From Deltaproteobacteria bacterium (GTDB lineage: Bacteria; Myxococcota_A; Polyangia; Polyangiales; JADJMO01): a stretch of DNA of 64,000 bases. Positions 5,082 through 50,195 of this stretch are shown piece by piece. The notes beneath the pieces are model-generated. The model had not been told where the DNA came from. It saw only the letters and a list, made by a program, of their open reading frames with translations, and ran no database searches. How positions within the stretch are numbered: the first letter of the stretch is position 1; every line of letters begins with the position of its first letter. The stretch covers positions 1-64,000 of the forward strand of contig JALHOE010000014.1 of assembly GCA_022843175.1 (NCBI GenBank), written 5' to 3'. The position numbers were made by a program, and so were the translations under genes.

Positions 5082-8000
5082 TCAGGAGTGACTGGTGGGC
5101 AGTCGCATCTCCGAGAGCTGGCGGTACATCGAGAGGCGGCGCTCGGCCTGCGCGCGCGACGAGGCGACGAGGCGCTCGAAGCGCTCGGGATCTTGCAGCT
5201 CCACCGAGCGGAAGCGGCCCTCGGCGCGCATGTACTCCTCGATCTGCGCCTTGCTCACCGAGCCCGAGTCGAGGGTGAGCGGCGCTTCGCCGCGGGCGAT
5301 GCGGCGTGGATCGAAGCGGACGAGCGGCCACACGCCGCTGTCGACCGCGCGGCGCTGCTGCTCGATGCCGTGGGAGAGATCGTAGCCGTGCGCGATGCAG
5401 TGGCTGTACGCGATGACCAGTGACGGCCCGTGCCAGCTCTCGGCCTCGCGCATCGCGTCGAGCGTGTGCTTGTCCTTCGCCCCCATCGCCACCCGGGCCA
5501 CGTACACGTGGCCGTAGGTCATCGCGACGAGCGCGAGATCCTTCTTGCCGACCTCCTTGCCGGCCGCCGCGAACTTGGCGGCCGCGCCGGTGGGCGTGGC
5601 CTTCGACTGCTGACCGCCGGTGTTGGAGTAGACCTCGGTGTCGAGCACGAGGACGTTCACGTCGGCGCCGGTGGCGAGCACGTGATCGAGCCCGCCGAAG
5701 CCGATGTCGTAGGCCCACCCGTCGCCGCCGACGATCCACACGATCTTGCGCACCAGGTAGTCGGCGAGCTTGTCGAGCGTGCGCGCCGTCGGGGTGTCCA
5801 TCGACGACAGCTTCTGGCGGAGCGCCACGACGCGGGCGCGCTGCTCGGCGAGCTCGGTCTCGTCCTCTTGCTTTGCGGCGAGCAGCGCGGTGACGAGCTC
5901 GTCGCCGACGGAGGCCTCCTTGAGCAAGCGCTCGGCGTGCGCGCGGTGGTGGTCGAGCGCGAGGCGGATGCCGAGGCCGTACTCGGCGTTGTCCTCGAAG
6001 AGCGAGTTCGACCACGCGACGCCGCGCCCGTTCTCGTCGGTGTGCCACGGGGTCGTCGGGAGGTTGCCGCCGTAGATCGACGAGCAGCCCGTGGCGTTGG
6101 CGATCACGGTGCGATCGCCGAACAGCTGGGTGAGCAGCCGCAGGTACGGCGTCTCGCCGCACCCCGAGCACGCGCCCGAGTACTCGAAGAGCGGCTCGAG
6201 CAGCTGGCTGCCCTTGACATCGAGGTGGACGCGCCGGCGATCGGGGGCGGGGAGCGAGGCGACGAAGTCGAAGCGCGCGCGCTCGAGCGTGCGGCGGTCC
6301 TCCACGTCACCCATGTCGAGGCCCTGGTGGATCGGGTTGGCCTTGTCGTGCGCCGGGCAGAACGCGACGCACAGCGAGCACCCGGTGCAGTCGTCCGGCG
6401 CGACCTGCACGACGTACTGGTCGCCGGCGTGGTCCTTGGCCTTGTAGGGGACGGCGACGAAGCCCTCGGGCGCGTGGTCGAGCTGCTTGCTGTCGAACAC
6501 CGTCGTGCGGATCGCGCCGTGGGGGCAGATCAGCGCGCACTTGTTGCACTGGATGCAGACCTTCGGATCCCACACCGGCAGCTGCTGCGCGATGCTCCGC
6601 TTCTCGTACATGCCGCTGCCGACCGGCCAGGTGCCGTCGACCGGGAACGCGCTCACCGGCAGCAAGTCGCCCTTGCCGGCGAGGAGCACCGCGGTGACGC
6701 GCTCGATGAACGCCGGCGGCTTGCGGCCCGTGTCGGCGAGCACCGGCGGGCGCATCCGGTGGCTCGTCACCGTTCCCGGCAACGGCACGCTCGCCACGCG
6801 CTCGACCGCGCGATCGACGGCGGCGAAGTTCCTCTGCACGACCTCGTCGCCGCGCTTGCCGTACGACTTGGCGATCGACTTCTTGATGTGGGCGAGCGCC
6901 TCTTCGCGCGGCAGCACGCCGGAGAGCACGAAGAAGGCGGCCTGCATCACGGTGCCGATGGTCTTTCCGAGGCCGACCTCCTCGGCGAGCGCTTGCGCGT
7001 CGAGCACGAACACCTTGATGTCCTTGTCGACGATCTGCTCTTGCATCTCGCGGGGGAGGTGGTCCCACACGGCCTCGGGCTTCCACGGCGCGTTGAGGAG
7101 GAGCGTCGCGCCATGGCGGGCGCGCTCGAGGATGTCGATGCGGTCGAGGAACTGCGGCTGGTGGCACGCGATGAAGCTCGCGTCGCTCAACAGATAGGTG
7201 GAGCGGATCGGGCGCGGCGAGAACCGCAGGTGCGAGACCGTCATCGAGCCGGACTTGCGCGAGTCGTAGACGAAGTAGCCCTGGGCGAAGAGGTCGGTGC
7301 CCTCGCCGACGATCTTGATCGTGTTCTTGTTGGAGCCGACCGTGCCGTCGGCGCCGAGCCCGAAGAACATGGCGCGCACCACGTCGTCCGGCTCGAGGTG
7401 GAACCGCGGATCGTAGGCGAGCGAGCGGCGGGTGACGTCGTCCTCGATGCCCACGGTGAAGCCGCTGCGCGGCTGCGACTTGGCGAGCTCGTCGTAGACG
7501 GCGCGCACCATCGCCGGCGTGAACTCCTTCGACGAGAGACCATAGCGGCCGGCGACGATCACCGGCTGCTCGTCGCGCACGCCGAGCCGTCGTCCCTCGG
7601 CGAACGCGGCCACGACGTCGAGCCACAGCGGATCGCCGGGCGCGCCCGGCTCCTTGGTGCGATCGAGCACCGCGACGGCGCGCGCGCTCCTCGGGACGGC
7701 GGCGAGGCACGCGGCGACGTCGAACGGGCGATAGAGCCGCACCTTTACCAGGCCAACGCGCTCGCCGCGGGCCACCAGCCACTCGACGGTCTCCTCGATT
7801 GCGCCGACCGCCGAGCCCATCACCACGAGGACGCGCTCGGCGTCGGGGGCGCCGACGTACTCGAAGAGGTCGTAGCGGCGGCCGGTGAGCTCGCCGAAGC
7901 GCTTCATGGTGTCGCGCACGACGGCGCCGCAGGCGTCGTAGAAGGGGTTGATCGCCTCCCTCGCCTGGAAGAAGGCGTCGGGGTTCTGGGCGGTGCCGCG

Positions 8001-8654
8001 CATCGTCGGCGCGTCCGGGGTCAGCGCGCGCGCGCGGTGCGCGGCCACGGCCTCTCCGTCGAGAAGGGTGCGCAGCACGCTCTCGTCGAGCGTCTCGATC
8101 TTCGCGACCTCGTGCGAGGTGCGGAACCCGTCGAAGAAGTGGAGGAACGGGATGCGGGCGCGGAGGGTCGCCGCGTGGGCGATCGCGGCGAGATCCTGGG
8201 CCTCTTGCACCGACGCCGAGCAGAGCATCGCGAAGCCGGTCATCCGGCACGCCATCACGTCGGAGTGATCGCCGAAGATGGAGAGCGCGTGGGTCGCCAG
8301 CGTGCGCGCCGCGACGTGCATGACGAACGGCGTGAGCTCGCCCGCGATCTTGTACATATCGGGGATCATCAGCAGCAGCCCCTGCGACGCGGTGAACGTC
8401 GTGGAGAGCGCCCCCGCAGACAATGCGCCGTGCAGCGCACCTGCCGCGCCTGCCTCGGACTGCATCTCGACGACCCGAGGTACATCGCCCCACAGGTTCT
8501 TGCGGCCGCGCGACGACCACTCGTCGCACAGCTCGCCCATCGAGGAGCTGGGTGTAATCGGGTAGATGGCGATGACCTCGCTCGCGCGGTGGGCCACGGC
8601 GGCGACCGCTTCGTTGGCGTCCAGGGTCATGTGGGCAGGCGTCTTGTCGGTCAT
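5082..8654 (-). CDS. nifJ: pyruvate:ferredoxin (flavodoxin) oxidoreductase
   Basis: A single-chain homodimer-type PFOR of 1190 residues, the usual family length. It oxidises pyruvate with CoA to acetyl-CoA and CO2 and passes electrons to ferredoxin or flavodoxin; the reaction is reversible. Visible in order: the YPITPSS motif of domain I (about residue 31), the gamma-type domain in the middle, two ferredoxin-type cluster motifs (CIQCNKCALICP near 695 and CTGCSLCVAFCP near 755), the proximal-cluster cysteines CSGCGE (near 830), ATGCSS and SHC, and the ThDP/Mg region GDGWAYDIGFGG (near 978) with DTEVYSNTGGQQS. The ATG at 8654 starts immediately before the conserved domain; an earlier in-frame start at 8750 would overlap the divergent ferredoxin. 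It sits next to a ferredoxin gene and the complex I operon. Confidence 0.97.
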   Translation of the reverse strand: MTDKTPAHMTLDANEAVAAVAHRASEVIAIYPITPSSSMGELCDEWSSRGRKNLWGDVPRVVEMQSEAGAAGALHGALSAGALSTTFTASQGLLLMIPDMYKIAGELTPFVMHVAARTLATHALSIFGDHSDVMACRMTGFAMLCSASVQEAQDLAAIAHAATLRARIPFLHFFDGFRTSHEVAKIETLDESVLRTLLDGEAVAAHRARALTPDAPTMRGTAQNPDAFFQAREAINPFYDACGAVVRDTMKRFGELTGRRYDLFEYVGAPDAERVLVVMGSAVGAIEETVEWLVARGERVGLVKVRLYRPFDVAACLAAVPRSARAVAVLDRTKEPGAPGDPLWLDVVAAFAEGRRLGVRDEQPVIVAGRYGLSSKEFTPAMVRAVYDELAKSQPRSGFTVGIEDDVTRRSLAYDPRFHLEPDDVVRAMFFGLGADGTVGSNKNTIKIVGEGTDLFAQGYFVYDSRKSGSMTVSHLRFSPRPIRSTYLLSDASFIACHQPQFLDRIDILERARHGATLLLNAPWKPEAVWDHLPREMQEQIVDKDIKVFVLDAQALAEEVGLGKTIGTVMQAAFFVLSGVLPREEALAHIKKSIAKSYGKRGDEVVQRNFAAVDRAVERVASVPLPGTVTSHRMRPPVLADTGRKPPAFIERVTAVLLAGKGDLLPVSAFPVDGTWPVGSGMYEKRSIAQQLPVWDPKVCIQCNKCALICPHGAIRTTVFDSKQLDHAPEGFVAVPYKAKDHAGDQYVVQVAPDDCTGCSLCVAFCPAHDKANPIHQGLDMGDVEDRRTLERARFDFVASLPAPDRRRVHLDVKGSQLLEPLFEYSGACSGCGETPYLRLLTQLFGDRTVIANATGCSSIYGGNLPTTPWHTDENGRGVAWSNSLFEDNAEYGLGIRLALDHHRAHAERLLKEASVGDELVTALLAAKQEDETELAEQRARVVALRQKLSSMDTPTARTLDKLADYLVRKIVWIVGGDGWAYDIGFGGLDHVLATGADVNVLVLDTEVYSNTGGQQSKATPTGAAAKFAAAGKEVGKKDLALVAMTYGHVYVARVAMGAKDKHTLDAMREAESWHGPSLVIAYSHCIAHGYDLSHGIEQQRRAVDSGVWPLVRFDPRRIARGEAPLTLDSGSVSKAQIEEYMRAEGRFRSVELQDPERFERLVASSRAQAERRLSMYRQLSEMRLPTSHS

Positions 8655-8740: not shown

Positions 8741-9046
8741 ATGGCGACACACATCACCGACGCATGCATCAACTGCGGGGCCTGCGAGCCCGAATGCCCG
8801 AACGAAGCGATCACGCAGGGGTCGGACATCTACGTCATCGACGGCGACAACTGCACCGAGTGCGTGGGCTTCCACGAAAAAGAGGCGTGTCAGGCCGTCT
8901 GCCCGGTCGAGTGCTGCATCCCCGACCCGACGCGGGTCGACACCGAGGAGCAGCTGATTGCCCGCGCGATTGCGCTGCACCCCGAGGATGAGGAGCTGAA
9001 GGCACGCGTCGCAAGCGGCGACTTCCCCTCGCGTTTCCGCAACTGA
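8741..9046 (+). CDS. YfhL-type 2[4Fe-4S] ferredoxin
   Basis: A 101-residue ferredoxin. Cluster ligands are C9, C12, C15 and C19, then C38, C41, C50 and C54. The eight-residue insertion between the second and third Cys of the second motif and the C-terminal extension mark the low-potential YfhL/Allochromatium-type (Alvin) ferredoxins. A likely role is electron carrier between PFOR (divergent, 86 bp away), the 2-oxoacid oxidoreductase and complex I. Stop to nuoA start is 54 bases, so it may be cotranscribed with the nuo genes. Confidence 0.93.
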   Translation: MATHITDACINCGACEPECPNEAITQGSDIYVIDGDNCTECVGFHEKEACQAVCPVECCIPDPTRVDTEEQLIARAIALHPEDEELKARVASGDFPSRFRN

Positions 9047-9100: not shown

Positions 9101-9463
9101 ATGACCGCCTGGTTGTCTGCGCTTTCGTTCCTCGTCGTGTCCACCCTGGTCGGAGCCGGCATGTTGGTCGCCGCGCGCATCTTGCGCGTCCGCGCTCGCG
9201 CGGCGGCGTCCGAGCTCAAGACCCGCACCTACGAGTGCGGCGAGGAGCCGGCGGGGATGGCGTGGATGCAGTTCCACGCCCGCTACTACGTCGTCGCGCT
9301 GTTCTTCGTCGTCTTCGACGTCGAGGCGGTGTTCCTGTTTCCCTGGGCCGTCGTGCTGCGCGAGCTCGGCGTCGGGGCGTTCATCGCCGCCGTCGGCTTC
9401 GTGCTGGTGCTGATGCTCGGGTGGCTCTACGCGCTCAAGAAAGAGGCGCTCCAATGGCAGTGA
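9101..9463 (+). CDS. nuoA: NADH-quinone oxidoreductase subunit A
   Basis: A 120-residue membrane subunit with three predicted helices (about 5-25, 65-85, 95-115) and the conserved motifs KTRTYECGEEPAG and FHARYYVVALFFVVFDVEAVFLFPWA. The Cys in YECG lies in the loop that changes exposure during turnover in characterised complex I. A strong Shine-Dalgarno (AGGGGAG) precedes the ATG at 9101. First gene of the ten-gene complex I operon; its end overlaps nuoBC by 10 bases. Confidence 0.97.
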   Translation: MTAWLSALSFLVVSTLVGAGMLVAARILRVRARAAASELKTRTYECGEEPAGMAWMQFHARYYVVALFFVVFDVEAVFLFPWAVVLRELGVGAFIAAVGFVLVLMLGWLYALKKEALQWQ

Positions 9464-10605
9464 GCGACACACGAAGAGTCCTGCCGGTCGTGCGCGACGA
9501 GAGCGCGCTCCCCTACGAGCACCCTCTCTACCGCAGCCTGCTCGGCGTGCCCGGCCTGTCGGTCGCGACGGCGGTGCTCGACCAGCTCCTCGAGTGGGGC
9601 GCGCGCAACAGCCTGTGGGTGTTCCCCATGGCGACGAGCTGCTGCGGCATCGAGCTGATGAGCGCGGCCGCCAGCCGCGTCGACCTCGATCGCATGGGCA
9701 CCATCGTTCGCGCCACGCCGAGGCAAGCAGACGTGATGGTCATCGCCGGGACCATCACCACCAAGATGGCGCCGCGCGTGAAGGCGCTGTGGGACCAGAT
9801 GCCCGAGCCGAAGTGGGCCGTGGCGATGGGCTCGTGCGCGATCTCCGGCGACTTCTATCGCAACCTCTACCCGGTCGTCCCCGGCATCGACACCATCCTC
9901 CCGGTCGACGTGTACATCCCCGGATGTCCGCCGAACCCGGAGGCGCTGATGCACGGCCTCCTGCGCCTGCAGGAGAAGATCAAGGCGCGCACCGGCGCGC
10001 CGGCGCCGCGCGATCCCGTGCTCGCGGCGGCGCAGCTCGCCGCGGCGATCGCGGTGTCGTCCAACGACCGCAGCGACGAGCCGGTGGGCGAGGAGCAGGA
10101 GCTGCTCGTGCAGGCGCCCGACGAGGTGCCGTTCACCGAGATCGCGAGCGACTACGACACGATCCTCCGCGAACAGTTTGCCGTCGGCGAATTCCCTGCG
10201 GACGGCGCGCCGATCATCCCGGCCGCGCGCCACCACGAGCTCGCGCGCACGCTGCGTGCATCGGGGTATCGCCAGCTCGTGTACATCGTCGCGACCCACT
10301 GCAAGGCGAAGGCGCTCGGGAAGACCTCACCGGAGAGATACGAGGTCGCGTACGGGCTGCGCAGCCTCGGCAAGGGCTCGAACGTCGCCTCGTGGCGCGT
10401 GCAGCTCGAACCGGGCGCGTCGGTGCCCTCGCTCGTGGGCCTGTTCGCCGGCGCGGACTTTCAGGAGCGCGAGCAGTTCGATCTCGTGGGCGTGCGCTTC
10501 GACGGTCACCCCGATCTCCGCCGGATCATGCTCGCCGACGACTACGAGGGGCACCCGCTCCACAAGGACTTCCCCGCCGACGCGCCCTGCGCGCCGTGGA
10601 GATGA
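9454..10605 (+). CDS. fused complex I subunits B and C (NuoB-NuoC)
   Basis: A protein of 383 residues carrying two normally separate subunits. Residues about 30-180 are NuoB, with the N2 cluster ligands C63 and C64 (TSCCGIEL), C128 (GSCAISG) and C158 (PGCPPNP). After a linker of about 50 acidic and Ala-rich residues, about 230-383 are the 30-kDa NuoC domain, ending with EQFDLVGVRFDGHPDLRRI and DDYEGHPLHKDFP. The start at 9454 (ATGGCAGTG) lies inside the end of nuoA. No internal stop or start separates the domains. NuoC is more often fused to NuoD, so a B-C fusion is unusual. The product would join the hydrophilic arm next to the quinone site. Confidence 0.95.
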   Translation: MAVSDTRRVLPVVRDESALPYEHPLYRSLLGVPGLSVATAVLDQLLEWGARNSLWVFPMATSCCGIELMSAAASRVDLDRMGTIVRATPRQADVMVIAGTITTKMAPRVKALWDQMPEPKWAVAMGSCAISGDFYRNLYPVVPGIDTILPVDVYIPGCPPNPEALMHGLLRLQEKIKARTGAPAPRDPVLAAAQLAAAIAVSSNDRSDEPVGEEQELLVQAPDEVPFTEIASDYDTILREQFAVGEFPADGAPIIPAARHHELARTLRASGYRQLVYIVATHCKAKALGKTSPERYEVAYGLRSLGKGSNVASWRVQLEPGASVPSLVGLFAGADFQEREQFDLVGVRFDGHPDLRRIMLADDYEGHPLHKDFPADAPCAPWR

Positions 10606-10609
10606 CGCC

Positions 10610-11806
10610 ATGACCGAGGGTCTACAGAGCGCGCGTCGCGGAGCGATCGACCCCCACCTGTCGATTCGTCACTACGACGCCGACGCCGACCTGATGCTGC
10701 TCCACTTCGGCCCGCAGCACCCGTCGACGCACGGTGTGTTCCGCATGGACCTCTACCTCGACGGCGAGGTGATCGTGAAGGCCACGCCCTTCCTCGGTTA
10801 CCTGCACCGCGGCGTCGAGAAGCTGTGCGAGAAGCTCACCTACGTGCAGCAGACGCCGGTCGTCGACAAGAACGACTACGTCTCGCCGATGATCAACGAG
10901 CAAGCGTTGAACATGGCGTTCGAGAAGCTCCTCAAGCTGGAGGTCCCGCGCCGCGCCCGCTGGCTGCGCACCCTGCTCGCCGAGCTGCAGCGGCTCGCGT
11001 CGCACCTGCTCTGGCTCGGCACGTTCACGCTCGATCTCGGCGGCGCGCTCGGCGGCGGCTCCACCCTGTTTCTCCACTGCTTCCGCGAACGCGAGCTCAT
11101 CCTCGACCTGTTCGAGGAGCTCACCGGCTCGCGCTTCCACTACAACACCCACACCATCGGCGGCAATCGCCACGACCTACCCGCGGGCCTCGCGGCGAAG
11201 GTCGAGGTCGCGCTCGCAGCCATCGCGGCGCGGCTCGGCGAGTACGAGGACCTCAGCCTCGGACACGCGATCTTCCAGGCGCGCACCAAGGGCGTGGGCA
11301 CGCTTGACAGCGACCTCGCCCTCGAGCTCGGGATCACCGGGCCCATCCTCCGCGCGTCGGGCGTCGATCACGATCTGCGCCGCGACGCGCCGTATCACGC
11401 GTACGACGAGCTCACCGTCAACGTCGCGACCGAGCACGCCGGCGACTGCTTCGCCCGCGCGAGCGTGCGCTTCGCGGAGATGCGCGAGAGCATCCGCCTC
11501 TGTCGCGCGGTGCTCGAGGGCCTCCCCGAGGGGCCGATCGCCGCGTCGAAGGCGGTGCGCCTGCCGACGGCGGTGAAGATCGCGAGCGGTCAGGTCTACG
11601 TCGGCATCGAGGGCCCGCGCGGCGAGATCGGCACCTTCGTGATCGCCGGCGGCGACACGCCGACCACACCCTACCGGCTCAAGATCCGCGCGCCGAGCAT
11701 GCACGCGCTCGCCGCGATTCCGTATGTGATGCCCGGAGCCACGCTGAGCGACGCGGTCGCGATCCTCGGCTCGCTCGACCCGATCATGGGGGAGGTGGAC
11801 CGATGA
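10610..11806 (+). CDS. nuoD: NADH-quinone oxidoreductase subunit D
   Basis: A 398-residue 49-kDa-type subunit that forms the quinone pocket with NuoB. Motifs include GPQHPSTHG (residues 34-42), GYLHRGVEKLCE, the DYVSPM motif and the C-terminal SLDPIMGEVDR. The start is four bases after the nuoBC stop. NuoD descends from the hydrogenase large subunit, but the nickel-ligand cysteines are absent here, as expected for complex I. Confidence 0.97.
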   Translation: MTEGLQSARRGAIDPHLSIRHYDADADLMLLHFGPQHPSTHGVFRMDLYLDGEVIVKATPFLGYLHRGVEKLCEKLTYVQQTPVVDKNDYVSPMINEQALNMAFEKLLKLEVPRRARWLRTLLAELQRLASHLLWLGTFTLDLGGALGGGSTLFLHCFRERELILDLFEELTGSRFHYNTHTIGGNRHDLPAGLAAKVEVALAAIAARLGEYEDLSLGHAIFQARTKGVGTLDSDLALELGITGPILRASGVDHDLRRDAPYHAYDELTVNVATEHAGDCFARASVRFAEMRESIRLCRAVLEGLPEGPIAASKAVRLPTAVKIASGQVYVGIEGPRGEIGTFVIAGGDTPTTPYRLKIRAPSMHALAAIPYVMPGATLSDAVAILGSLDPIMGEVDR

Positions 11807-12780
11807 GCGGCCTGGTTCACGGCGCGCAGTACGCGGTGATGATCGTGTCGTCGCTCCTCGCGGTGATCGCGATCGGCATCTGGTTCGAGCGCAAGTTCGC
11901 CGGCCGGATGCAGTCGCGCCTCGGCCCGACGATCGTCGGACCGGTCGGGCTGCTCCAGCCGCTCGCCGACGTGGTGAAGCTGCTGCAGAAAGAGGACATC
12001 GTCCCCAAGGACGCCGATCGCGCCCTCTTCGACCTCGCGCCGCTGCTCGCCGTCCTCTTCTCGCTCGGCGCCGCCGCGGTGGTGCCGTTCTCGCCCACGG
12101 CGGTCGCCGCCGATCTCGACATCGGCGTCCTGTTCATCCTCGCGATCGGCGCGCTGATGGTCATCCCCACCTTCGCCGCCGGCTGGGCGAGCAACAACAA
12201 GTTCGCGCTCCTCGGCGGCATGCGCGCGGTGGCGCAGTCGGTGTCCTACGCCGTGCCGCTGGTGCTCGTGGTGATGGTGCCGGTGATCCTCTCCGGCAGC
12301 ATGCGCGTCTCGGAGATCGTCACCTTCCAGAGCGAGCACCACTGGTTCGCGGTGTGGCCGATCATCCCCGGTCTGCCGGCGTTCGCGCTGTTCTTCATCG
12401 CGATGCTCGCGGAGTCCAACCGCATCCCGTTCGACATCCCCGAGGCCGAGAGCGAGCTCGTCGCGGGCATCACCACCGAGTACACCGGCGCCAAGTTCGT
12501 CCTCTTCTACATGGCGGAGTACGTCCACACGCTGGTCGGCTCGGCGGTCGGCGCCGCGCTGTTCCTCGGCGGCTGGGACGGGCCCTTCAAGCCGGGGCTC
12601 CACTGGATGGTGCTCAAGACGCTGCTGCTCTTCACCGCCGTGTACTGGGTGCGGTGGACGCTGCTGCGGTTCCGCTCCGACCAGCTGATGGACCTGTGCT
12701 GGAAGCGGCTCGTTCCCATCGCGGTGGGGCTCGTCTTCCTCGCGGCGGCGTGGGTGCAGTTCGTACCGGGAGCTCGCTGA
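11803..12780 (+). CDS. nuoH: NADH-quinone oxidoreductase subunit H
   Basis: A 325-residue membrane subunit with about eight helices. The diagnostic loop ESNRIPFDIPEAESELVAGI followed by TEYTGAKFVLFYMAEY forms part of the quinone entrance. The start overlaps the nuoD stop (ATGA). It connects the hydrophilic arm to the proton-pumping membrane arm. Confidence 0.97.
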   Translation: MSGLVHGAQYAVMIVSSLLAVIAIGIWFERKFAGRMQSRLGPTIVGPVGLLQPLADVVKLLQKEDIVPKDADRALFDLAPLLAVLFSLGAAAVVPFSPTAVAADLDIGVLFILAIGALMVIPTFAAGWASNNKFALLGGMRAVAQSVSYAVPLVLVVMVPVILSGSMRVSEIVTFQSEHHWFAVWPIIPGLPAFALFFIAMLAESNRIPFDIPEAESELVAGITTEYTGAKFVLFYMAEYVHTLVGSAVGAALFLGGWDGPFKPGLHWMVLKTLLLFTAVYWVRWTLLRFRSDQLMDLCWKRLVPIAVGLVFLAAAWVQFVPGAR

Positions 12781-12782
12781 CC

Positions 12783-13379
12783 ATGGGCGTCTTCTCCTAT
12801 TGGATCGACACGGCACGCGCGCTGCGGACGACGCTGCGCAACGCGTTTCGGCCCCCGACCACGGTCGAGTTCCCGGCGGTCATTCGGCCGCGCGCCGAGC
12901 GCTACCGCGCGAGCTTCGCCCTCGTGGACGACGAGAACGGCGAGTGCGCCTGCGTCGCGTGCCAGGCCTGCGAGAAGATCTGCCCGTCGCAGGTCATCAA
13001 GATGAAGAGCGGCGGCAAGCGCGAGTCGCCGGTGACCGGCAAGAAGCGCGCGTACGCCGACGAGTTCGTGCTCGATCTCTCCGCCTGCATGCAGTGCGAG
13101 CTCTGCGTGCAGGTCTGCAACAACGACGCGATCGTCATGATCCGCGAGCCGGAGGAGCCCGCGTACACCCGGGCCGACCTCGTGTTCGACATGGCCCACC
13201 TGCGCGACAACGCGCACACCAAGACGGCCACCTGGGCCAACGGCACGCGCCTGCAGGAGATGCAGGAGGGCAAGAAGGTCCCGAAGGCCAAGCCGGAGCC
13301 CAAGCCGGAGCCCAAGCCGGAGCCCAAGCCGGAGCCCAAGGCGGAGCCGAAGCCGCCCACCGAGGGAGGCACGCCGTGA
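12783..13379 (+). CDS. nuoI: NADH-quinone oxidoreductase subunit I with repetitive KPEP tail
   Basis: A 198-residue ferredoxin-like subunit carrying two [4Fe-4S] clusters: C57-C60-C63-C67 (last followed by Pro) and C102-C105-C108-C112 (followed by Asn). In an enzyme without NuoEFG this subunit and NuoB would be the entry route for electrons, probably from ferredoxin. Residues about 165-198 form a low-complexity Lys/Pro/Glu tail made of KPEP repeats, encoded by a 12-base tandem repeat; this is not part of the usual NuoI. The GTG of nuoJ overlaps its stop. Confidence 0.96.
   Translation: MGVFSYWIDTARALRTTLRNAFRPPTTVEFPAVIRPRAERYRASFALVDDENGECACVACQACEKICPSQVIKMKSGGKRESPVTGKKRAYADEFVLDLSACMQCELCVQVCNNDAIVMIREPEEPAYTRADLVFDMAHLRDNAHTKTATWANGTRLQEMQEGKKVPKAKPEPKPEPKPEPKPEPKAEPKPPTEGGTP
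13290..13349 (+). repeat. 12-base tandem repeat encoding KPEP in the NuoI tail
   Basis: Four perfect copies of AAGCCGGAGCCC (13290-13337) are followed by a degenerate copy (13338-13349). The period is a multiple of three, so copy-number change would lengthen or shorten the tail without shifting the frame. Confidence 0.9.
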
Positions 13380-13921
13380 GCGCGTCGATCGGGTTCGGGT
13401 TCGTCGCCGCGTGCGCGGTGCTCTCGGCGCTCTTCGTCGTCCGGGTGAAGAACCTCGTGCACGCGGCGCTGTGGCTCGGCGTCACGTTGATCGCGACGGC
13501 CGGCCTCTACGCGATGCTCGACGCATCGTTCCTCGCCGGCGTCCAGGTGCTGCTCTACGTGGGCGGCGTCAGCGTGCTGATGATCTTCGGCGTGATGATC
13601 ACGCGGAAGCACGACGGCCTGGTGGTCGAGGCCGAGAGCACGTCGGGCCCCCGCGGGGTGTTCGCGGCCGTCGGCTTGTTCGCGGTGCTCGCGACCTCCA
13701 TCGTCATGACCCCCGAGCTCGATGGCGCGGTCGCCGTCGAGACGGTCACCGCGCGCCACCTCGGGCGCAGCCTGCTCGTCGACCACGTCCTCGCGTTCGA
13801 GGTCGTCTCGTTGTTGTTGCTCATCGCGATCATCGGCGCGGTCGTCCTCGCGCGCCGCCGCGACCACGGCGTCGAGCGCAAAGAGCTCCCGGCGCCCCGT
13901 CGCGAGGAGGTGTCGTCGTGA
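13376..13921 (+). CDS. nuoJ: NADH-quinone oxidoreductase subunit J
   Basis: A 181-residue membrane subunit with five predicted helices. The key piece is VQVLLYVGGVSVLMIFGVMI (about residues 56-75), the helix that forms the pi-bulge region in characterised complex I. It starts with GTG at 13376, overlapping the nuoI stop as GTGA. The hydrophilic C-terminus (ARRRDHGVERKELPAPRREE) is cytoplasmic. Confidence 0.96.
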   Translation: MSASIGFGFVAACAVLSALFVVRVKNLVHAALWLGVTLIATAGLYAMLDASFLAGVQVLLYVGGVSVLMIFGVMITRKHDGLVVEAESTSGPRGVFAAVGLFAVLATSIVMTPELDGAVAVETVTARHLGRSLLVDHVLAFEVVSLLLLIAIIGAVVLARRRDHGVERKELPAPRREEVSS

Positions 13922-14232
13922 CGCTCTCCCACTGCCTCATCCTCGCCAGCGCGCTCTTCGCGATCGGCGTCTACGGCGTGCTCACCCGCAAGCAGGTGAT
14001 CGCCATCCTCATCTCGGTCGAGCTGATGGCCAACGCCGCGAACCTCGTGTTCATCGCGTTCGGACGGTATCGGGTCCCGAGCGCCGTCGGGGCCGCGCCC
14101 GGCCAGCTCTTCGCGCTGTTCTCCCTGGCGCTCACCGTCGCCGAGGTCGCGGTCGGCCTCGCGCTCGTGATCCTCCTCTACCGCAGCTACGGCGACACGC
14201 GCGTCGGGCTGGCCAGCGAGCTGAAGTCATGA
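13918..14232 (+). CDS. nuoK: NADH-quinone oxidoreductase subunit K
   Basis: A 104-residue, three-helix antiporter-like subunit (MrpC-type), with the motif GVLTRKQVIAILISVELMAN that carries the conserved membrane Glu of the proton path. A second conserved Glu lies in LALTVAEVAVGLALVI. It starts with GTG at 13918, overlapping the nuoJ stop. Confidence 0.96.
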   Translation: MTLSHCLILASALFAIGVYGVLTRKQVIAILISVELMANAANLVFIAFGRYRVPSAVGAAPGQLFALFSLALTVAEVAVGLALVILLYRSYGDTRVGLASELKS

Positions 14233-16016
14233 TGCGCCCGATCTTGCTCGCCCTCACGGCGCTCCTCGCGCCGGCGCTCGTCGCTTTGTCGCTCGCGGTC
14301 GCGCCCTCGGTCCGCCGGCGCGGCGCCCCCGCCGCGGCGCTCACCATCCTCGCCTCGCTCGCGTCGTTCGGCGCGGCGGTCGCCCTCTTGTTCGAGCACT
14401 CGGCGCGGCTCACGGTGCCCTGGCTGCGCACCGGCGCGCGCGTGATCGCCGAGGTCGGCGTGAACGTGGACGGGGTGTCGACGTCGATGCTCGTCGTCGT
14501 GACGTTCGTCGCGCTGTGCGTGCAGGTGTTCTCGCTCGGCTACATGCACGACGAGTCGCCGCCCGCGTTCGGGCGGTACTTCGCGTATCACGCGCTGTTC
14601 CTCTTCAGCATGAACCTGCTCGTGCTCGCGCCCAACCTCTTGCAGCTGTTCGCCGGCTGGGAGCTCGTCGGCGTCACGAGCTACCTGCTCATCGGCTTCT
14701 ATTACAAGAAGCCGAGCGCGGCGCACGCGGCGGTGAAGGCGTTCTGGGTCACCAAGTTCGCCGACATGGGCTTCCTGTTCGGGTTGCTCACGCTGTTCGT
14801 CGCGACCGGCTCGTTCTCGTTCAACGTGGCGCTCACGCCCCCGGTCGCCGTCGCCGTGACGCTGCTCTTCTTCCTCGCGGTCGTCGGAAAGTCGGCGCAG
14901 TTCCCGCTCCACGTGTGGCTCCCCGACGCGATGGAGGGTCCGACGCCGGTCTCGGCGCTGCTCCACGCGGCGACGATGGTCGCGGCGGGCGTGTTCCTCG
15001 TGGTGCGCGCCGACCCGCTGTTCGCGCAGGCCGAGTCCACCCGCACGGTCATGCTCGTCGTCGGCGTCGGCACCGCGCTCTTCGCGGCGCTCCTCGCCCT
15101 CGTGCAGACCGACATCAAGAAGGTCCTCGCGTACTCCACCTGCTCGCAGCTCGGCTACATGATCGCCGCGCTCGGCGCCGGCTCGATGCTCGGCGGCTTC
15201 TTCCACCTCACCACCCACGCCTTCTTCAAGGCGCTGCTGTTCCTCGCCGCGGGCAGCATCATCCACGCGGTGGGCTCGAACGAGCTCTCCAAGATGGGCG
15301 GCCTCGCGCGCCGCATGCCGGTCACCTTCGCCGCGTTCACCATCGGCGCGCTCTCGCTCGCCGCGGTCCCCGGCTTCTCCGGGTTCTTCTCCAAGGACCT
15401 CGTGCTCGAGGCGGTCGCGGGGAAGCTCGGCTCGATCCCGCTCGCGCTCCTGGTGGCCACGGCCTTCCTCACCGCGTTCTACATGGGTCGCGTGCTGGTC
15501 GTCGCGTTCCTCGGCGCGCCGAGCAGCGACGAGGCGGCGCACGCGCACGAGGCGGGGTGGTCGATGAAGCTCCCGCTCCTCGCCCTCGCGGCGCTGTCGC
15601 TCGTCGCCGGCTTCTTCGCCGCGCCGTTCGCCAAGCTGCACGGGCAGGCCTACCACTTCCACTTCGGCGGCGTCGCCGCGGTCGGCACCGCCGCCGGGCT
15701 CCTCGGGCTCGTCCTCGCCTACACGCTGTCCTCCGCGAGGATCGCGCGCGCGACCCGCGCGGTGTCGGAGCTCGCGCGCGGGAGCGCCGTGGACCGCTTC
15801 TACGAGTACAGCTTCCGCCGCGTGACGCTCGTCCTGAGCGACTCGCTCGCCTGGGTCGACCGCTACGTGGTCGACGGGATGATCAACCTGCTCGGCTACC
15901 GAACGATCGACGCGGGGCGCGGAATGCGCCCGCTGCAAACCGGCATGGCGCCCGACTACGTGCTCGCGGTCGTGGTGGGCGCGGCCTCTCTCGCTGCCTG
16001 GACGGTGCTGCGATGA
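14229..16016 (+). CDS. nuoL: NADH-quinone oxidoreductase subunit L
   Basis: A 595-residue antiporter-like pump subunit. Landmarks include FAGWELVGVTSYLLIGF with the conserved Glu (about residue 140), KSAQFPLHVWLPDAMEGPTP with the conserved Lys and Pro-rich loop, QTDIKKVLAYSTCSQLGYM, and FKALLFLAAGSIIHAVG. The C-terminal part contains the long lateral helix region and terminal helix (DYVLAVVVGAASLAAWTVL). Two adjacent ATGs occur at 14229 and 14232; the first overlaps the nuoK stop. Confidence 0.97.
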   Translation: MMRPILLALTALLAPALVALSLAVAPSVRRRGAPAAALTILASLASFGAAVALLFEHSARLTVPWLRTGARVIAEVGVNVDGVSTSMLVVVTFVALCVQVFSLGYMHDESPPAFGRYFAYHALFLFSMNLLVLAPNLLQLFAGWELVGVTSYLLIGFYYKKPSAAHAAVKAFWVTKFADMGFLFGLLTLFVATGSFSFNVALTPPVAVAVTLLFFLAVVGKSAQFPLHVWLPDAMEGPTPVSALLHAATMVAAGVFLVVRADPLFAQAESTRTVMLVVGVGTALFAALLALVQTDIKKVLAYSTCSQLGYMIAALGAGSMLGGFFHLTTHAFFKALLFLAAGSIIHAVGSNELSKMGGLARRMPVTFAAFTIGALSLAAVPGFSGFFSKDLVLEAVAGKLGSIPLALLVATAFLTAFYMGRVLVVAFLGAPSSDEAAHAHEAGWSMKLPLLALAALSLVAGFFAAPFAKLHGQAYHFHFGGVAAVGTAAGLLGLVLAYTLSSARIARATRAVSELARGSAVDRFYEYSFRRVTLVLSDSLAWVDRYVVDGMINLLGYRTIDAGRGMRPLQTGMAPDYVLAVVVGAASLAAWTVLR

Positions 16017-17590
16017 CCTCGCATCTGTTGTCCCTCGTGGTCGGTGCGCCCGCGCTCGCCGCGTTGGTGCTGCTGTTCCTGCGGCCCGAGCAGAGGCTCG
16101 CCATCCGCGTCGTCTCGCTCGTCGCCGCCACGGTGTCGCTGCTCGGCAGCGTGGTGGCGCTCACGTCGTACGACCGAGCCCGCTCGGGCTTCCAGATGGT
16201 CGAGAGCTACCCGATCGTCCCGGCGCTCGGCATTCATCTCACGTTCGCGCTCGACGGGTGGGGCGGGCCGCTGCTCATCCTCACCTCGGTGATCATCTTC
16301 GCGGGCGTGCTCGCGAGCTGGTCGATCGCCAAGCGCGACAAGGAGTACTTCGCGCTCCTGCTCATCCTGGTGTCCGGCGTGTACGGCGTGTTCGTCACCC
16401 AGGACTTGCTCGTCTTCTTCCTGTTCTACGAGATCGCCGTGCTCCCGATGTACCTCCTCATCGGCATCTGGGGCTCGAGCCACGAGGTGCGGGCCGAGGG
16501 CCCGTTCCGCCGTGCGTGGGAGTTCTTCTCGGTGGGCGACAAGCAATACGCCGCGATGAAGCTCACCCTGATGTTGCTCGTCGGGTCGGCGGCGATCCTG
16601 GTCGCCATCTTCGCGCTCTACGCCAAGGCGGGCGCGCGGAGCTTCGATCTCGGGGTGCTCGCGAGCGCCCACTACTCGCCCGAGCTGCAGGTGGTGTTGT
16701 TCCCGCTCCTCTGGCTCGGGTTCGGCACCCTCGCCGGCGTCTTCCCCTTCCACACGTGGTCGCCCGACGGTCACGCGTCCGCGCCGACCGCGGTGTCGAT
16801 GCTCCACGCCGGCGTGCTGATGAAGCTCGGTGCGTTCGGCGTGATGCGCGTCGGCATGGTGCTCCTGCCGCACGGCGCGCGGGTGTGGGTGCCGGTCGTG
16901 GGCGCGGTCGCCGCGGTCAACGTGCTCTACGGCGCCTTCTGCGCCATGAGCCAGAAGGACCTCAAGTACATCATCGCGTACTCGTCGGTCAGCCACATGG
17001 GCGTGGTGATGCTCGGCGCGGCGACCCTCACGCCCGAGGGGTGGAACGGCGCGGTGTTCCAGATGGTCGCCCACGGGATCATGACCGCGCTCTTCTTCGC
17101 GATGGTCGGCCTGGTGTACGAGCGCGCGCACACCCGCGCGGTCGCCAAGATGGGCGGGTTCGCCACGGTGATGCCCGGCGTCGCCGCGTTCTTCACCCTC
17201 GCGTGCCTGTCATCGCTCGGCCTCCCCGGCACGGCCGGCTTCGTCTCGGAGTTCCTCGTGTTCCTCGGCGCGTGGCGCGCGGGGCACTACCTGTGGGCGA
17301 TCCCCGGCGTGCTCGGCGCGTTCGTCACCGCGATCTACGTGCTCCGCGCCACCCGCGCGATCTTCTGGGGCGAGGGGCCGAGCAAGGAGTTCCACGACCT
17401 CGGAGAGGCCCGCGGCACCGAGTGGGCGGCGCCGATCGTGCTCGGCGCCTGCGTGGTGTTGTTCGGGCTGTGGCCGCGCATCCTGCTCGATCACATCGAC
17501 CCGGGGAGCGCGATGCACCTCGAGCGGCTGCTCCGCTTGGAGGCGATCGAGCGCGTCGTTTCGACGCACGCGGAAGGGTTCAAGCCATGA
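16013..17590 (+). CDS. nuoM: NADH-quinone oxidoreductase subunit M
   Basis: A 525-residue antiporter-like pump subunit. It contains FFLFYEIAVLPMYLLIGIWG (conserved Glu), FPFHTWSPDGHASAPTAVSM, KLGAFGVMR, QKDLKYIIAYSSVSHMG and FVSEFLVFLGAW. It has about 14 transmembrane helices, the usual number for NuoM. The start overlaps the nuoL stop (ATGA). Confidence 0.97.
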   Translation: MTSHLLSLVVGAPALAALVLLFLRPEQRLAIRVVSLVAATVSLLGSVVALTSYDRARSGFQMVESYPIVPALGIHLTFALDGWGGPLLILTSVIIFAGVLASWSIAKRDKEYFALLLILVSGVYGVFVTQDLLVFFLFYEIAVLPMYLLIGIWGSSHEVRAEGPFRRAWEFFSVGDKQYAAMKLTLMLLVGSAAILVAIFALYAKAGARSFDLGVLASAHYSPELQVVLFPLLWLGFGTLAGVFPFHTWSPDGHASAPTAVSMLHAGVLMKLGAFGVMRVGMVLLPHGARVWVPVVGAVAAVNVLYGAFCAMSQKDLKYIIAYSSVSHMGVVMLGAATLTPEGWNGAVFQMVAHGIMTALFFAMVGLVYERAHTRAVAKMGGFATVMPGVAAFFTLACLSSLGLPGTAGFVSEFLVFLGAWRAGHYLWAIPGVLGAFVTAIYVLRATRAIFWGEGPSKEFHDLGEARGTEWAAPIVLGACVVLFGLWPRILLDHIDPGSAMHLERLLRLEAIERVVSTHAEGFKP

Positions 17591-19026
17591 GCGAGCTCCG
17601 TGCGCTGTGGGTCCCGCTCGCGGTCGCCGCGGTCGCGATCGTGCTGCTCGTCGTCGACGTGCTCACGCACCCGCACACGTCGCGGCGGTGGCTCGGCTAC
17701 TTCGTGGCCGGGGCGCTCGCCGCCATCTTCTGCGCGACGTTCTTGTTTCCGACCGACGGCCGCGCGGCGCACGGCGCGTTCGAGGGCTCGGCCTGGACCA
17801 CCTCCTTCCAGCGCCTGTTCCTCTCCGCCGGCGTCGTCGCGGCCCTCGGCGGGCTCGACGACGTGGCCAAACGCACGCCCCACCGGGTGGGCGAGTACTG
17901 GCTGGCGATGCTGTTCAGCATCATCGGCATGCTGATCCTGCCGGGCGCGCGCGACCTCGTGCTGCTCATCGTCGCGTTCGAGCTGATGGGCATCCCGCTC
18001 TATGTGCTCGCCGCCTACGCGAAGACCGAGACCAAGGGCGGTCACGCCGCCGAGGCCGCGCTGAAGCTGTACCTCACCGGCGCGACGAGCACGGCGATCA
18101 CGCTGTTCGGCCTCGCGCTCTTCACCGGGATGACCGGCACGACCCGGCTCGACGCGCTCGCCGGCGCCGCGGGGGCGACGACGCCGCTCGCGGGCGTGGG
18201 GCTCGCGTTCGTCATCGCCGGCATGGGCTACAAGCTCGGCATGGTGCCCTTCCATATGTGGGTGCCCGACACGTACCAGGGCGCGTCGACGCCGTTCGTC
18301 GCCTTCCTCTCGGTCGCGCCCAAGGCCGCGGGCGTCGCGGCGATGTCGGCCATCTTCCTCTTTGGTATGCGCGGCCACCCGGCGCACTGGGCGCCGGTGA
18401 TCGCGCTGCTCGCGATCCTCTCGATGGTCGTCGGCAACCTCCTCGCGCTGCCGCAGACCGATCTCCGGCGGCTCCTCGGCTACTCGGGCATCGCGCAGAT
18501 GGGCTACGTCCTCGTCGCGCTCGCCTCGAACGACACCTTCGCCGCCGGGATGACGTTCTTCTTCCTTACGGCCTATCTCTTCACCAACATGGGCGCGTTC
18601 CTCGTGCTCCACGTCGCTGCCGAGAGCAGCGGCGAGCACTCGGCCGCGTCGCTCGCGGGCCTCGCCCAACGCGCACCCGGCCTCGCGGCGGCGTTGATGG
18701 CGTTCCTCCTCTCGCTCGCCGGGATCCCGTTCGTCGTCGGCTTCTGGGCGAAGCTCTACGTGCTCCTCGCCGCGTTCCGCGCCGGCCTGGTGCTCCCCGT
18801 GGTCGTGGGCATCGCGCTCGCGGTCGTGGGGTTGTTCTACTACCTCCGCGTGCTCTCGGCGGCGTACATGAGCGAGCCCGGTGCGTTGAAGCGCCCCGAG
18901 CTCGGCGCGCCGATGCGCCTCGCGATCGGCATCTGCGTGGTCGCCGTCGTCGGTCTCGGCCTCTGGCCCAAGCCCCTCGTCGATCAATCTCTCGCGGCCG
19001 CAACCTCGCTCCTCGAGCGCCGGTAG
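17587..19026 (+). CDS. nuoN: NADH-quinone oxidoreductase subunit N
   Basis: A 479-residue antiporter-like subunit, the last gene of the complex I operon. Motifs include VAFELMGIPLYVLAAYAK (conserved Glu), GYKLGMVPFHMWVPDTYQGA, QTDLRRLLGYSGIAQMGY and LLSLAGIPFVVGFWAKLYVL. It overlaps nuoM (ATGA). The operon ends here: no nuoE, nuoF or nuoG follows or precedes it in the window. Confidence 0.97.
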   Translation: MSELRALWVPLAVAAVAIVLLVVDVLTHPHTSRRWLGYFVAGALAAIFCATFLFPTDGRAAHGAFEGSAWTTSFQRLFLSAGVVAALGGLDDVAKRTPHRVGEYWLAMLFSIIGMLILPGARDLVLLIVAFELMGIPLYVLAAYAKTETKGGHAAEAALKLYLTGATSTAITLFGLALFTGMTGTTRLDALAGAAGATTPLAGVGLAFVIAGMGYKLGMVPFHMWVPDTYQGASTPFVAFLSVAPKAAGVAAMSAIFLFGMRGHPAHWAPVIALLAILSMVVGNLLALPQTDLRRLLGYSGIAQMGYVLVALASNDTFAAGMTFFFLTAYLFTNMGAFLVLHVAAESSGEHSAASLAGLAQRAPGLAAALMAFLLSLAGIPFVVGFWAKLYVLLAAFRAGLVLPVVVGIALAVVGLFYYLRVLSAAYMSEPGALKRPELGAPMRLAIGICVVAVVGLGLWPKPLVDQSLAAATSLLERR

Positions 19027-19127: not shown

Positions 19128-20912
19128 ATGAATGACCTGATCATCGGCATGGCCGGCTCCGGAGGAGACGGCGTCGTCAGCGCGGGAGAGTCCCTGATCG
19201 CCGCGGCGGCCTACGAGGGTTACCACGCCATGATGACCAAGAGCTTCGGCTCGCAGGTCCGCGGCGGCGAGTCCTCGTGCCGCGTCCGTCTCTCGACGAG
19301 CCGCGTGCACAACCCCGGCGGCGCGCTCGACGTGGCCGTCGCCCTCAACTGGGACGACTTCCTCCGTTTCGGGGCGGAGCTGCCGGTCTCCGGCGATACG
19401 GTGGTCATTTACGAGAGCAAGACCGGCGTCGCGCCCGACGCGCTCCCGTTGATCGGTGTCACGCCGCACGAGGTGTTCGCGATCCCGATCGCCGACATGG
19501 CCAAGCAGGCGACCGGGTCCGACAAGGCCAAGACCACCATCGTGCTCGGGCTCATCGCCGGGTGGTTCGACATCGCCCGCGAGTCGATCCTGCGCGGCCT
19601 GAAGAAGAAGTTCGCGCGCAAGGGCGAGAAGCTCGTCGAGGCCAACGAGAAGGCGTTCGCGCTCGGCGAGGCCTACGCCAAGGAGCACCCGCTCAAGAAG
19701 CCGCGCGCCATGGAGCGGCCCGTGGGACGAGACGGCGCGAAGATGCTCACCGACGGCAACGACATGTGCGCCGCGGCGTCCATCTTCGCCGGCTGCGAGT
19801 TCTTCGGCGGCTACCCGATCACGCCCTCCACCGAGATCATGCAGTTCCACACCCGCGAGCTGTGGAAATACGGCGGCGCGGTGCTGCAGGCCGAGGACGA
19901 GATCGCCGGCATCGGCGCGGCGCTCGGCGCGTCGTTCGCCGGCCGCAAGGCGATGACCGCCACGTCCGGCCCGGGCATGGCGCTCAAGACCGAGATCATG
20001 GGCCTCGCGACGATCGCCGAGCTGCCGCTGGTCATCGTCGACGTGCAGCGCGGCGGCCCCTCCACCGGCTTGCCGACCAAGGCCGAGCAGTCCGACCTCT
20101 ATATGGCCGCGTTCTCCGCCCACGGCGACGTGCTCCGCCCGGTGCTCGCCCCCACCTCGGTGGCCGACACCTTCGACGTCACGGTGCAGGCCTTCAACCT
20201 CGCCGAGCAGTTCCAGACGCCGGTCATCATGCTCAGCGATCAGGAGATCGCGCAGCGCAAGGAGACCGTCGATCCGATCGACACGTCGGCGTTCACCGTC
20301 GAGACGCGCAAGCTCCCGAGCGCGGCCGAGCTGGAGCAGTACTCGCGCTTCCGCATGACCGCGGACGGCGTGAGCCCGGTGAGCCACCCCGGCATGCCGG
20401 GTGGCAACTATCAGGGCGCCGGCATCGAGCACAACGAGGCCGGCAACCCGACGGCGAGCGGTCGGGTCCACCACGCCATGAACGAGAAGCGGTTCCGCAA
20501 GCTCGCGCCGCTCCAGGCGCGGCGAGACCTCTTCCACATCGAGGGCGATCCCAACGCGCCGCTCGCGATGATCGCGTGGGGCTCGATCGCCGGCGTGTGT
20601 CGCGAGGCGCTCGACCTCGCGAAGGCCAAGGCGCTCAACGTGAAGCTGCTGGTGCCGTGGCTGCTCTACCCGATCGCCGAGGACGTCTACCGCGACTTCT
20701 TCGCCGGCGTGAAGGCGGGGCTCGTCGTCGAGCTGTCGTTCCAGGGGCAGCTCTATCACCTGCTCCGCATGTACGTGGACGTCCCGTCGTGCGTGACGTC
20801 GTTCTGCCGCAGCGGCGCCAATCCCATCCAACCGCGCGAGGTCGTCGCCAAGCTGCTCCAGGCTTCGCTCGCCCTACAACACCCGATCAACCCGATCGCG
20901 ACGGAGGCCTGA
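19128..20912 (+). CDS. korA: 2-oxoacid:ferredoxin oxidoreductase, fused gamma-alpha subunit (probably 2-oxoglutarate)
   Basis: A 594-residue subunit with the gamma domain first (MAGSGGDGVVSAGE, CoA/assembly domain, residues 1-190) and the alpha domain after (GGYPITPSTE near residue 228, then TATSGPGMALKTE and VQRGGPSTGLPTK). This is the KorA arrangement of two-subunit 2-oxoglutarate:ferredoxin oxidoreductases, which convert 2-oxoglutarate and CoA to succinyl-CoA, CO2 and reduced ferredoxin, reversibly. Substrate choice is inferred from subunit architecture; 2-oxoisovalerate or pyruvate cannot be excluded. It begins 101 bases after nuoN and may have its own promoter. korB follows after two bases. 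Confidence 0.93.
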   Translation: MNDLIIGMAGSGGDGVVSAGESLIAAAAYEGYHAMMTKSFGSQVRGGESSCRVRLSTSRVHNPGGALDVAVALNWDDFLRFGAELPVSGDTVVIYESKTGVAPDALPLIGVTPHEVFAIPIADMAKQATGSDKAKTTIVLGLIAGWFDIARESILRGLKKKFARKGEKLVEANEKAFALGEAYAKEHPLKKPRAMERPVGRDGAKMLTDGNDMCAAASIFAGCEFFGGYPITPSTEIMQFHTRELWKYGGAVLQAEDEIAGIGAALGASFAGRKAMTATSGPGMALKTEIMGLATIAELPLVIVDVQRGGPSTGLPTKAEQSDLYMAAFSAHGDVLRPVLAPTSVADTFDVTVQAFNLAEQFQTPVIMLSDQEIAQRKETVDPIDTSAFTVETRKLPSAAELEQYSRFRMTADGVSPVSHPGMPGGNYQGAGIEHNEAGNPTASGRVHHAMNEKRFRKLAPLQARRDLFHIEGDPNAPLAMIAWGSIAGVCREALDLAKAKALNVKLLVPWLLYPIAEDVYRDFFAGVKAGLVVELSFQGQLYHLLRMYVDVPSCVTSFCRSGANPIQPREVVAKLLQASLALQHPINPIATEA

Positions 20913-20914
20913 CC

Positions 20915-21802
20915 GTGAGCTCCATTCCTGTCGAACGGCCAGCCCTTCAGGCCAAGGACTTCAAGAGCGACTTGAAGCCGATCTGGTGTCCGGGGTGCGG
21001 CGACTTCGGTGTGCTGCAGGCGATCTACCGCGCGCTCGCGGGCATCGGCCGCCCGCCGCACGAGATCGCCTTCGTGTCCGGCATCGGCTGCTCGAGCCGC
21101 ATCCCCGGCTACACCACCGCCTACGGCTTCAACAGCGTGCACGGTCGCGCGTTGCCGATCGCCCAGGGCATCAAGCTCGCGCGGCCCGAGCTGCTCGTGC
21201 TGGTCGCCGGGGGCGACGGCGACGGCTTCTCGATCGGCGGTGGCCACGTCGCGCACGCGATCCGCCGCAACATCGACCTGACGTACATCGTCATGGACAA
21301 CCAGATCTACGGCCTCACGAAGGGGCAGCTGTCGCCGACCTCGCCGAGGGGCTTGAAGACGGTCACCTCCGAGTACGGCTCGCTCGAGGCCCCGGTCAAC
21401 CCGCTCCTCTACGTGCTGGCCTACGGCGCGAGCTTCGTCGCCCAGGGCACGCCCGCCGACATGGCCGGCCTCGCGGACGTCATCGAGCAGGCGATCCGCC
21501 ACCCCGGGTTCTCGTTCGTCAACGTGCAGTCGCCGTGCGTCACGTTCGCGCCCGAGGACCAGCAGGTGAAGGCGCAGCGCGGTCGGATGAAGACGCTCGC
21601 GAGCGTCGGCCACGACTCGACCAACCGCCTCGCGGCGATGGGGCTCGCGCAGACCTACGGCGAGGTGCTCTACACCGGCGTCCTCTACAAGGACCCGGCT
21701 CCCCAACCCACGCTCGACGCGCTCGTCCGCGAGCGCCAGGCGAAGCTCGCCCTCGAGGCGGTCCCGCGCGAACGAATCCTCGACATGTTCCTCCAGAAGT
21801 GA
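20915..21802 (+). CDS. korB: 2-oxoacid:ferredoxin oxidoreductase beta subunit (probably 2-oxoglutarate)
   Basis: A 295-residue ThDP and [4Fe-4S] subunit starting with GTG. Cluster and active-site motifs are WCPGCGDFGVL (C25, C28) and SGIGCSSRIPGY (C59), plus a later Cys in VQSPCVTF. The ThDP/Mg motif is GGDGDGFSIGGGH (from about residue 99) with MDNQIYGLTKGQ. No delta ferredoxin subunit is encoded next to it, so an external ferredoxin such as the product of 8741-9046 is the probable acceptor. Confidence 0.94.
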   Translation: MSSIPVERPALQAKDFKSDLKPIWCPGCGDFGVLQAIYRALAGIGRPPHEIAFVSGIGCSSRIPGYTTAYGFNSVHGRALPIAQGIKLARPELLVLVAGGDGDGFSIGGGHVAHAIRRNIDLTYIVMDNQIYGLTKGQLSPTSPRGLKTVTSEYGSLEAPVNPLLYVLAYGASFVAQGTPADMAGLADVIEQAIRHPGFSFVNVQSPCVTFAPEDQQVKAQRGRMKTLASVGHDSTNRLAAMGLAQTYGEVLYTGVLYKDPAPQPTLDALVRERQAKLALEAVPRERILDMFLQK

Positions 21803-26569: not shown

Positions 26570-28195
<1,626 letters not shown>

Positions 28196-31104: not shown

Positions 31105-31160
31105 GTCCTGCCTCATGGATTGGTTGATCCCCTGGCGCGATCGATTCAACAGTCGCGCGC

Positions 31161-50011: not shown

Positions 50012-50122
50012 GCGCTCCCACACAGCAGCAGTCGTGCCCGGCGCGAATCGGGGTGAACCGAAACAATCGTCGGGCATTGCCGATGTATGCCGGACGCGGG
50101 GCTTCTCCGCGGTTGCGCAAAC

Positions 50123-50142
50123 GCGAGGACTGCAGTCCTCGC
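50123..50142. promoter_or_regulatory. 20-bp perfect palindrome between cytochrome and FHA-activator genes
   Basis: GCGAGGACTG followed by its exact reverse complement, no spacer, in the 184-base divergent gap. TTGCGCAA, another palindrome, lies three bases before it (50113-50120). A spacer-free dyad suits an operator for a dimeric regulator better than a transcript hairpin. Confidence 0.5.
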
Positions 50143-50195
50143 CTCGCTTGCTCAAGTTGCGCGAAGCCTTTGCGGCACGTTAGGTTGCCGCGTTC

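Follow-up and report, generated by a model that had tools for sequence, protein, structure and literature searches.

The nuo operon in the analysed window (the whole 64,000-nucleotide stretch of DNA) probably encodes a complete 11-subunit ferredoxin:quinone oxidoreductase and proton pump, in a genome that separately encodes a 14-subunit, NADH-using complex I. PFOR and Kor, encoded on either side of the operon, would transfer electrons from pyruvate and another 2-oxoacid to the linked ferredoxin, which would dock at the site that NuoG would otherwise occupy. Electrons would then pass from ferredoxin through the NuoI clusters (N6a, N6b) and N2 of NuoB to quinone bound at NuoB/D/H, and the H-A-J-K-N-M-L arm would pump protons. 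From the gene content, the FeS ligands, the quinone motifs, most of the pump residues and the conserved gene context, we infer the donor, the direction of electron flow, the docking site and proton pumping. Ferredoxin-driven pumping is the most likely reading because the complex has no NADH-reading part and because the only clear PFOR and Kor genes of the genome adjoin it.

A complex I operon of 11 subunits

The operon is intact and encodes, from the nuoA start at 9101 to the nuoN end at 19026, all the subunits of the Q and P modules (A, B, C, D, H, I, J, K, L, M and N; Table 1). No NuoE, F or G is encoded in it. The coordinates given in an earlier note on this DNA are exact, and its account of a B, C, D and I set with a full membrane arm and no NuoE, F or G holds, except that NuoB and NuoC, which it does not describe as fused, are a single fused gene of 383 residues. 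The cysteines of N2, N6a and N6b are kept, including the equivalents, by alignment, of NuoB 63/64/129/158, and NuoD, which scores above the NF004739 cut-off, has the motifs HPSTHG and DKNDY. The quinone site and the N2 ligands are of the complex I type, rather than the ligands of a NiFe hydrogenase. Hence, every subunit and ligand of the 11-subunit class (Nuo without the N module) is present, and the NuoEFG of the 14-subunit NADH:quinone oxidoreductase class is absent from the complex. As the family scores are high enough and the cluster is conserved in dozens of relatives, a chance origin of the cluster is excluded. A search for a sigma-70-type promoter gave no match, such a search being uninformative in this GC-rich genome.

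Table 1. Positions of the nuo operon, its flanking genes and other features of the window.
Feature	Position	Strand	Remarks
Single-chain PFOR (pyruvate:ferredoxin oxidoreductase)	5082..8654	-	TIGR02176, 1700 bits (cut-off 911)
YfhL/Alvin-type 2[4Fe-4S] ferredoxin	8741..9046	+	NF033683, 105.5 bits (cut-off 86)
nuoA	9101..9463	+	First gene of the window nuo operon
nuoBC fusion	9454..10605	+	NuoB part keeps the four N2 cysteines; linker; NuoC part
nuoD	10622..11806	+	Quinone-site HPxTHG and ND-Y motifs kept
NuoD loop	about 11560-11590		HHF/HFK region; ~22 residues absent
nuoH	11803..12780	+	
nuoI	12783..13379	+	Both 4Fe-4S motifs
nuoI C-terminal tail	13310-13379		Low complexity, KPEP repeats
nuoJ	13376..13921	+	
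nuoK	13915..14232	+	
nuoL	14229..16016	+	Key E144/K229/K342/K399 kept
nuoM	16013..17590	+	E144, K265, E407 kept
NuoM codon 234	16730-16732		K234 to Leu
NuoM codon 259	16805-16807		L259 to His
nuoN	17587..19026	+	Key E133/K217/K247/K395 kept
KorCA, 2-oxoacid:ferredoxin oxidoreductase gamma-alpha fusion	19128..20912	+	TIGR03710, 548 bits (cut-off 483)
KorB, 2-oxoacid:ferredoxin oxidoreductase beta	20915..21802	+	
Ferritin-like/rubrerythrin-domain protein	21811..22335	+	Conserved with Kor beside nuo in relatives
Hemerythrin HHE protein	22365..22796	+	Recurrent neighbour
PPDK	23198-25474		
GroEL-type chaperonin	26570-28195		
Acetyl-CoA hydrolase/transferase family gene	31128-32447		
Protein with RoxA-like cytochrome c domain	48305-50179		Adjoins the next feature
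FHA/sigma-54 activator gene	50184-51989		
Open frame of 1858 residues	57016-62589		TPR repeats almost throughout

Genes flanking the operon

The ferredoxin gene lies 54 bp upstream of nuoA, a position that it also has in the six closest named relatives, and the PFOR gene is transcribed away from ferredoxin and nuo, its start codon being 86 bp from that of the ferredoxin gene. On the other side, KorCA starts 101 bp beyond nuoN. The family scores bear out the earlier description of the operon as flanked by PFOR, a 2[4Fe-4S] ferredoxin and a 2-oxoacid:ferredoxin oxidoreductase, the last of which can be refined to a gamma-alpha fusion plus a beta subunit. The complex is therefore linked genetically to enzymes that reduce ferredoxin. 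The ferritin-like and hemerythrin genes that follow may serve in protection or in sensing when oxygen is low, and the PPDK, chaperonin and acetyl-CoA hydrolase/transferase genes downstream of the cluster suggest a local region of pyruvate/acetate metabolism.

Since complex I is reversible in principle, quinol and the proton-motive force might instead drive the reduction of ferredoxin, with which PFOR or Kor would carboxylate reductively, a use with which the nearby PPDK gene would fit. We consider this reverse operation quite improbable, as the oxidative use requires no extra assumption.

A second complex I elsewhere in the genome

The genome is a 9.75 Mb draft of 470 contigs, about 95% complete, and the search of it that the earlier note had proposed, for nuoEFG and for a second, 14-subunit set, found both. 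A cluster nuoABCDGHI, with nuoG between nuoD and nuoH, lies on contig C141 (L017), and a cluster nuoEFJKLMN, in which nuoEF head the J-N genes, lies on contig C75 (L004). Together they make up a canonical 14-subunit complex I, with which the nuoEFG of the genome therefore belong; the copy on C141 is also the one further NuoD in the genome besides that of the window. Thus, the reported absence of NuoEFG is right for the operon, and the genome does carry these genes, embedded in the canonical set instead of forming an unlinked set that serves the window complex. Clusters of the nuoABCDGHI type were also seen in other Myxococcota.

Three NuoF-like proteins are encoded outside the window, so that the 11-subunit complex could in principle borrow an NADH module, either NuoEF/G from the other complex I or a NuoEF-like unit from a formate dehydrogenase or hydrogenase, and act as an NADH dehydrogenase. 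However, each of the three lies within an enzyme cluster of its own: that of the C75/C141 complex I, one with a molybdopterin (formate dehydrogenase-like) enzyme on C114 and one with a NiFe hydrogenase on C287. Moreover, the window NuoD is without a loop segment found in all the 14-subunit NuoDs examined (see below), and the related complex of Bacteroides shows no NADH role, as deletion of the 11-subunit nuo operon in Bacteroides fragilis leaves NADH:quinone activity unchanged (PMC7002350). A borrowed NADH module is, hence, very unlikely.

The enzymes that would supply ferredoxin are otherwise scarce: across the 9.75 Mb, the genome has no full-length PFOR besides that of the window, the second match being partial (30%), and no other close KorB copy. 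Searches of the genome revealed neither an RnfC-like protein nor a hydrogenase of the FeFe or group-4 type. The ferredoxin:quinone pump proposed in the earlier note is, in this way, supported by the genetic context, by the FeS and quinone motifs and by the lack of detected Rnf, FeFe or group-4 competitors, which makes ferredoxin the probable donor. The genome also encodes a 2-oxoglutarate dehydrogenase E1, so that ferredoxin-linked oxidation would be an alternative route and not the sole one, which counts against the proposal.

Relatives and gene context

NuoDs of the window type, called type A here, are sharply set off, as matches were either at least 61% or at most 46% identical. They were found in 42 of the 285 genomes sampled from the phylum, and the nearest sampled family member has neither this complex nor a Kor match. 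The operon recurs, again with no NuoE/F, in 31 named contigs, of which most are from Myxococcota and some are MAGs that bear Planctomycetota or Rhodobacterales labels. A second NuoD is likewise present in most of the 16 named genomes tested. Of 53 type-A loci, 31 have the nuoBC fusion, which is absent from all 37 loci of other types. In Polyangiaceae-type relatives, genes are inserted between the nuo genes, and these were considered as candidates for a hidden NuoG; the inserts proved unrelated.

Among 50 unique type-A loci, 24 have Kor, PFOR or this ferredoxin as a neighbour, whereas all 23 fourteen-subunit loci lack one (Fisher p 1e-5, with the kinship between loci ignored), and Kor is placed around the type-A nuo genes in three arrangements, before nuoA, after nuoN or convergent. 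The other 26 type-A loci have no Kor, PFOR or ferredoxin within about 10 kb, some of the contigs being short, which counts against ferredoxin as the general donor and would fit an 11-subunit quinone reductase that takes its electrons from flavodoxin, another FeS protein or a directly docking enzyme. The donor of 11-subunit complexes is regarded as open in the literature, where several have been proposed and no common donor gene was found (PMC11238625), and flavodoxin is used by the complex I of Campylobacter, as cited in PMC7002350. Among the neighbours of the type-A loci without Kor, we likewise found no common alternative donor gene. In the window, however, a ferredoxin gene heads the operon, which lies between the only clear PFOR and the only clear Kor of the genome, and we therefore regard another donor as unlikely here.

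A distinct second 11-subunit group was seen in other Myxococcota (L066, L100 and L101). Kor, ferritin and PFOR genes lie nearby, upstream of nuo, in L066 and L101, and a YfhL-type ferredoxin gene directly follows nuoN in L100 and L101.

Phylogeny and the NuoD loop

In the NuoD tree that the earlier note had called for, rooted on hydrogenases and containing long branches, type A is a deep clade of its own (support 100/98), and the 14-subunit, NdhH, mitochondrial and other 11-subunit NuoDs lie on the opposite side (96/88); archaeal Fpo and Campylobacter sequences were not included in our trees. The window NuoD groups with complex I and apart from HycE, which separates it from the group-4 hydrogenases (Hyc, Mbh), and neither NdhH in this tree nor NdhD1 in the NuoM tree belongs to the window clade, which separates it from cyanobacterial/plastid NDH-1. 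That the window complex arose by recent loss of nuoEFG from the complex I of the same organism was also considered and rejected, as the type-A NuoD is only about 36-42% identical to the canonical copies and stands in a separate clade. In a tree of B, D and H together, the 14-subunit complexes are one group (94/96) and the split of type A is less strongly supported (72/97). Grouping all the 11-subunit complexes together was not rejected by these data (AU p 0.146), so that a single and a multiple origin of the 11-subunit state are both compatible with them. Judged by these sequences, the 11-subunit state of type A is old.

The missing residues of the window NuoD come from one loop, which measures 28-33 residues in the N-module-free complexes examined, with one outlier of 40 (L105), compared to 53-58 in 14-subunit complexes and 52 in NdhH. 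Among the bacteria sampled, a short NuoD loop thus goes with the absence of NuoEFG.

A paired change in NuoM

The canonical antiporter set (TM7 Lys, TM5 Glu, TM8 Lys/His and TM12 Lys/Glu in L, M and N) is complete with the sole exception of the NuoM TM7 lysine (K234, E. coli numbering), which is replaced by leucine; in addition, L259 in TM8 is replaced by a histidine, matched in the alignment by the one in TM8 of NuoL. All 40 type-A sequences have leucine at position 234, and histidine 259 was present in every type-A NuoM examined. The two positions are coupled, with 46 Leu/His and one Ile/His sequences against 15 Lys/Leu and one Lys/His. When the two columns were removed, the Leu/His sequences still formed one clade in the NuoM tree (100/100), which takes in other Myxococcota lineages and the 11-subunit operons of Bacteroidota (Prevotella, Phocaeicola), where the same K234L/L259H swap occurs. 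The TM7 lysine is kept in the cyanobacterial, Aquifex and plant homologues aligned, which are from solved structures. In E. coli HycC, too, position 234 is leucine (PMC5061711), but position 259 is phenylalanine, unlike in type A.

Substitutions of K234 in E. coli are described in PMC5061711, which cites Euro 2008, as abolishing quinone reductase activity, and in current models the K234/E144 pair has a gating function (PMC10212512, PMC9271201, PMC13324432). As NuoM is without the lysine needed by E. coli, pumping through this subunit is uncertain, which also counts against the proposed proton pump. Tentatively, the NADH-module-free clade, spanning several Myxococcota lineages and Bacteroidota, may have a NuoM that does without the TM7 Lys/TM5 Glu ion pair and uses a NuoL-type TM8 histidine instead, in which case ferredoxin-linked pumping by NuoM could follow a modified route or have a different proton stoichiometry. 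The change has been kept over deep time in the clade, together with the other pump residues, and this natural loss of a lysine and gain of a histidine provides a test of ion-pair models of proton pumping.

Comparison with known complexes

Ferredoxin-using 11-subunit complexes have already been proposed (Desulfitobacterium, Brevibacillus, MBNT15), and the general idea is not new. Neither the Myxococcota clade nor its B-C fusion, its shortened NuoD loop or its paired NuoM change turned up in a limited search of the open-access literature. An 11-subunit Nuo known from a strict anaerobe likewise consists of NuoABCDHIJKLMN without NuoEFG, with PFOR and ferredoxin as proposed donors; there, the partners were inferred from co-expression, whereas here the ferredoxin genes are within the cluster, and the window complex differs in coexisting with a 14-subunit complex I. 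The complex of Brevibacillus massiliensis, also of 11 subunits, was proposed to pass ferredoxin electrons to the respiratory chain in an organism that, unlike ours, has no NADH complex I (PMC9424855); that of another Bacillota member, Paenibacillus (L072), does not belong to the window clade and has retained the TM7 lysine of NuoM. The Bacteroidota complexes (B. fragilis, Prevotella) share the lack of NuoEFG and the short NuoD loop with the window, but have a C-D instead of a B-C fusion, and a 14-subunit complex I is not reported for them in PMC7002350. The MBNT15 bacterium SHF-111 resembles our genome in encoding an 11-subunit complex together with a 14-subunit one, and ferredoxin was suggested for it, as here, although its two nuo clusters are adjacent and those of our genome are unlinked (PMC9386147). 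The gene clusters of the type-A clade speak for ferredoxin in organisms that have an NADH complex I as well, which would allow the two enzymes to be compared within a single cell.

Cyanobacterial/plastid NDH-1 has extra ferredoxin-docking subunits. The window complex resembles it in its 11 core subunits and in the proposed ferredoxin donor, and no NdhS-like ferredoxin-binding subunit was seen, which is a further point against ferredoxin. Unlike the NuoD and NuoM of the window, NDH-1 keeps the long loop in NdhH and the lysine in NdhD.
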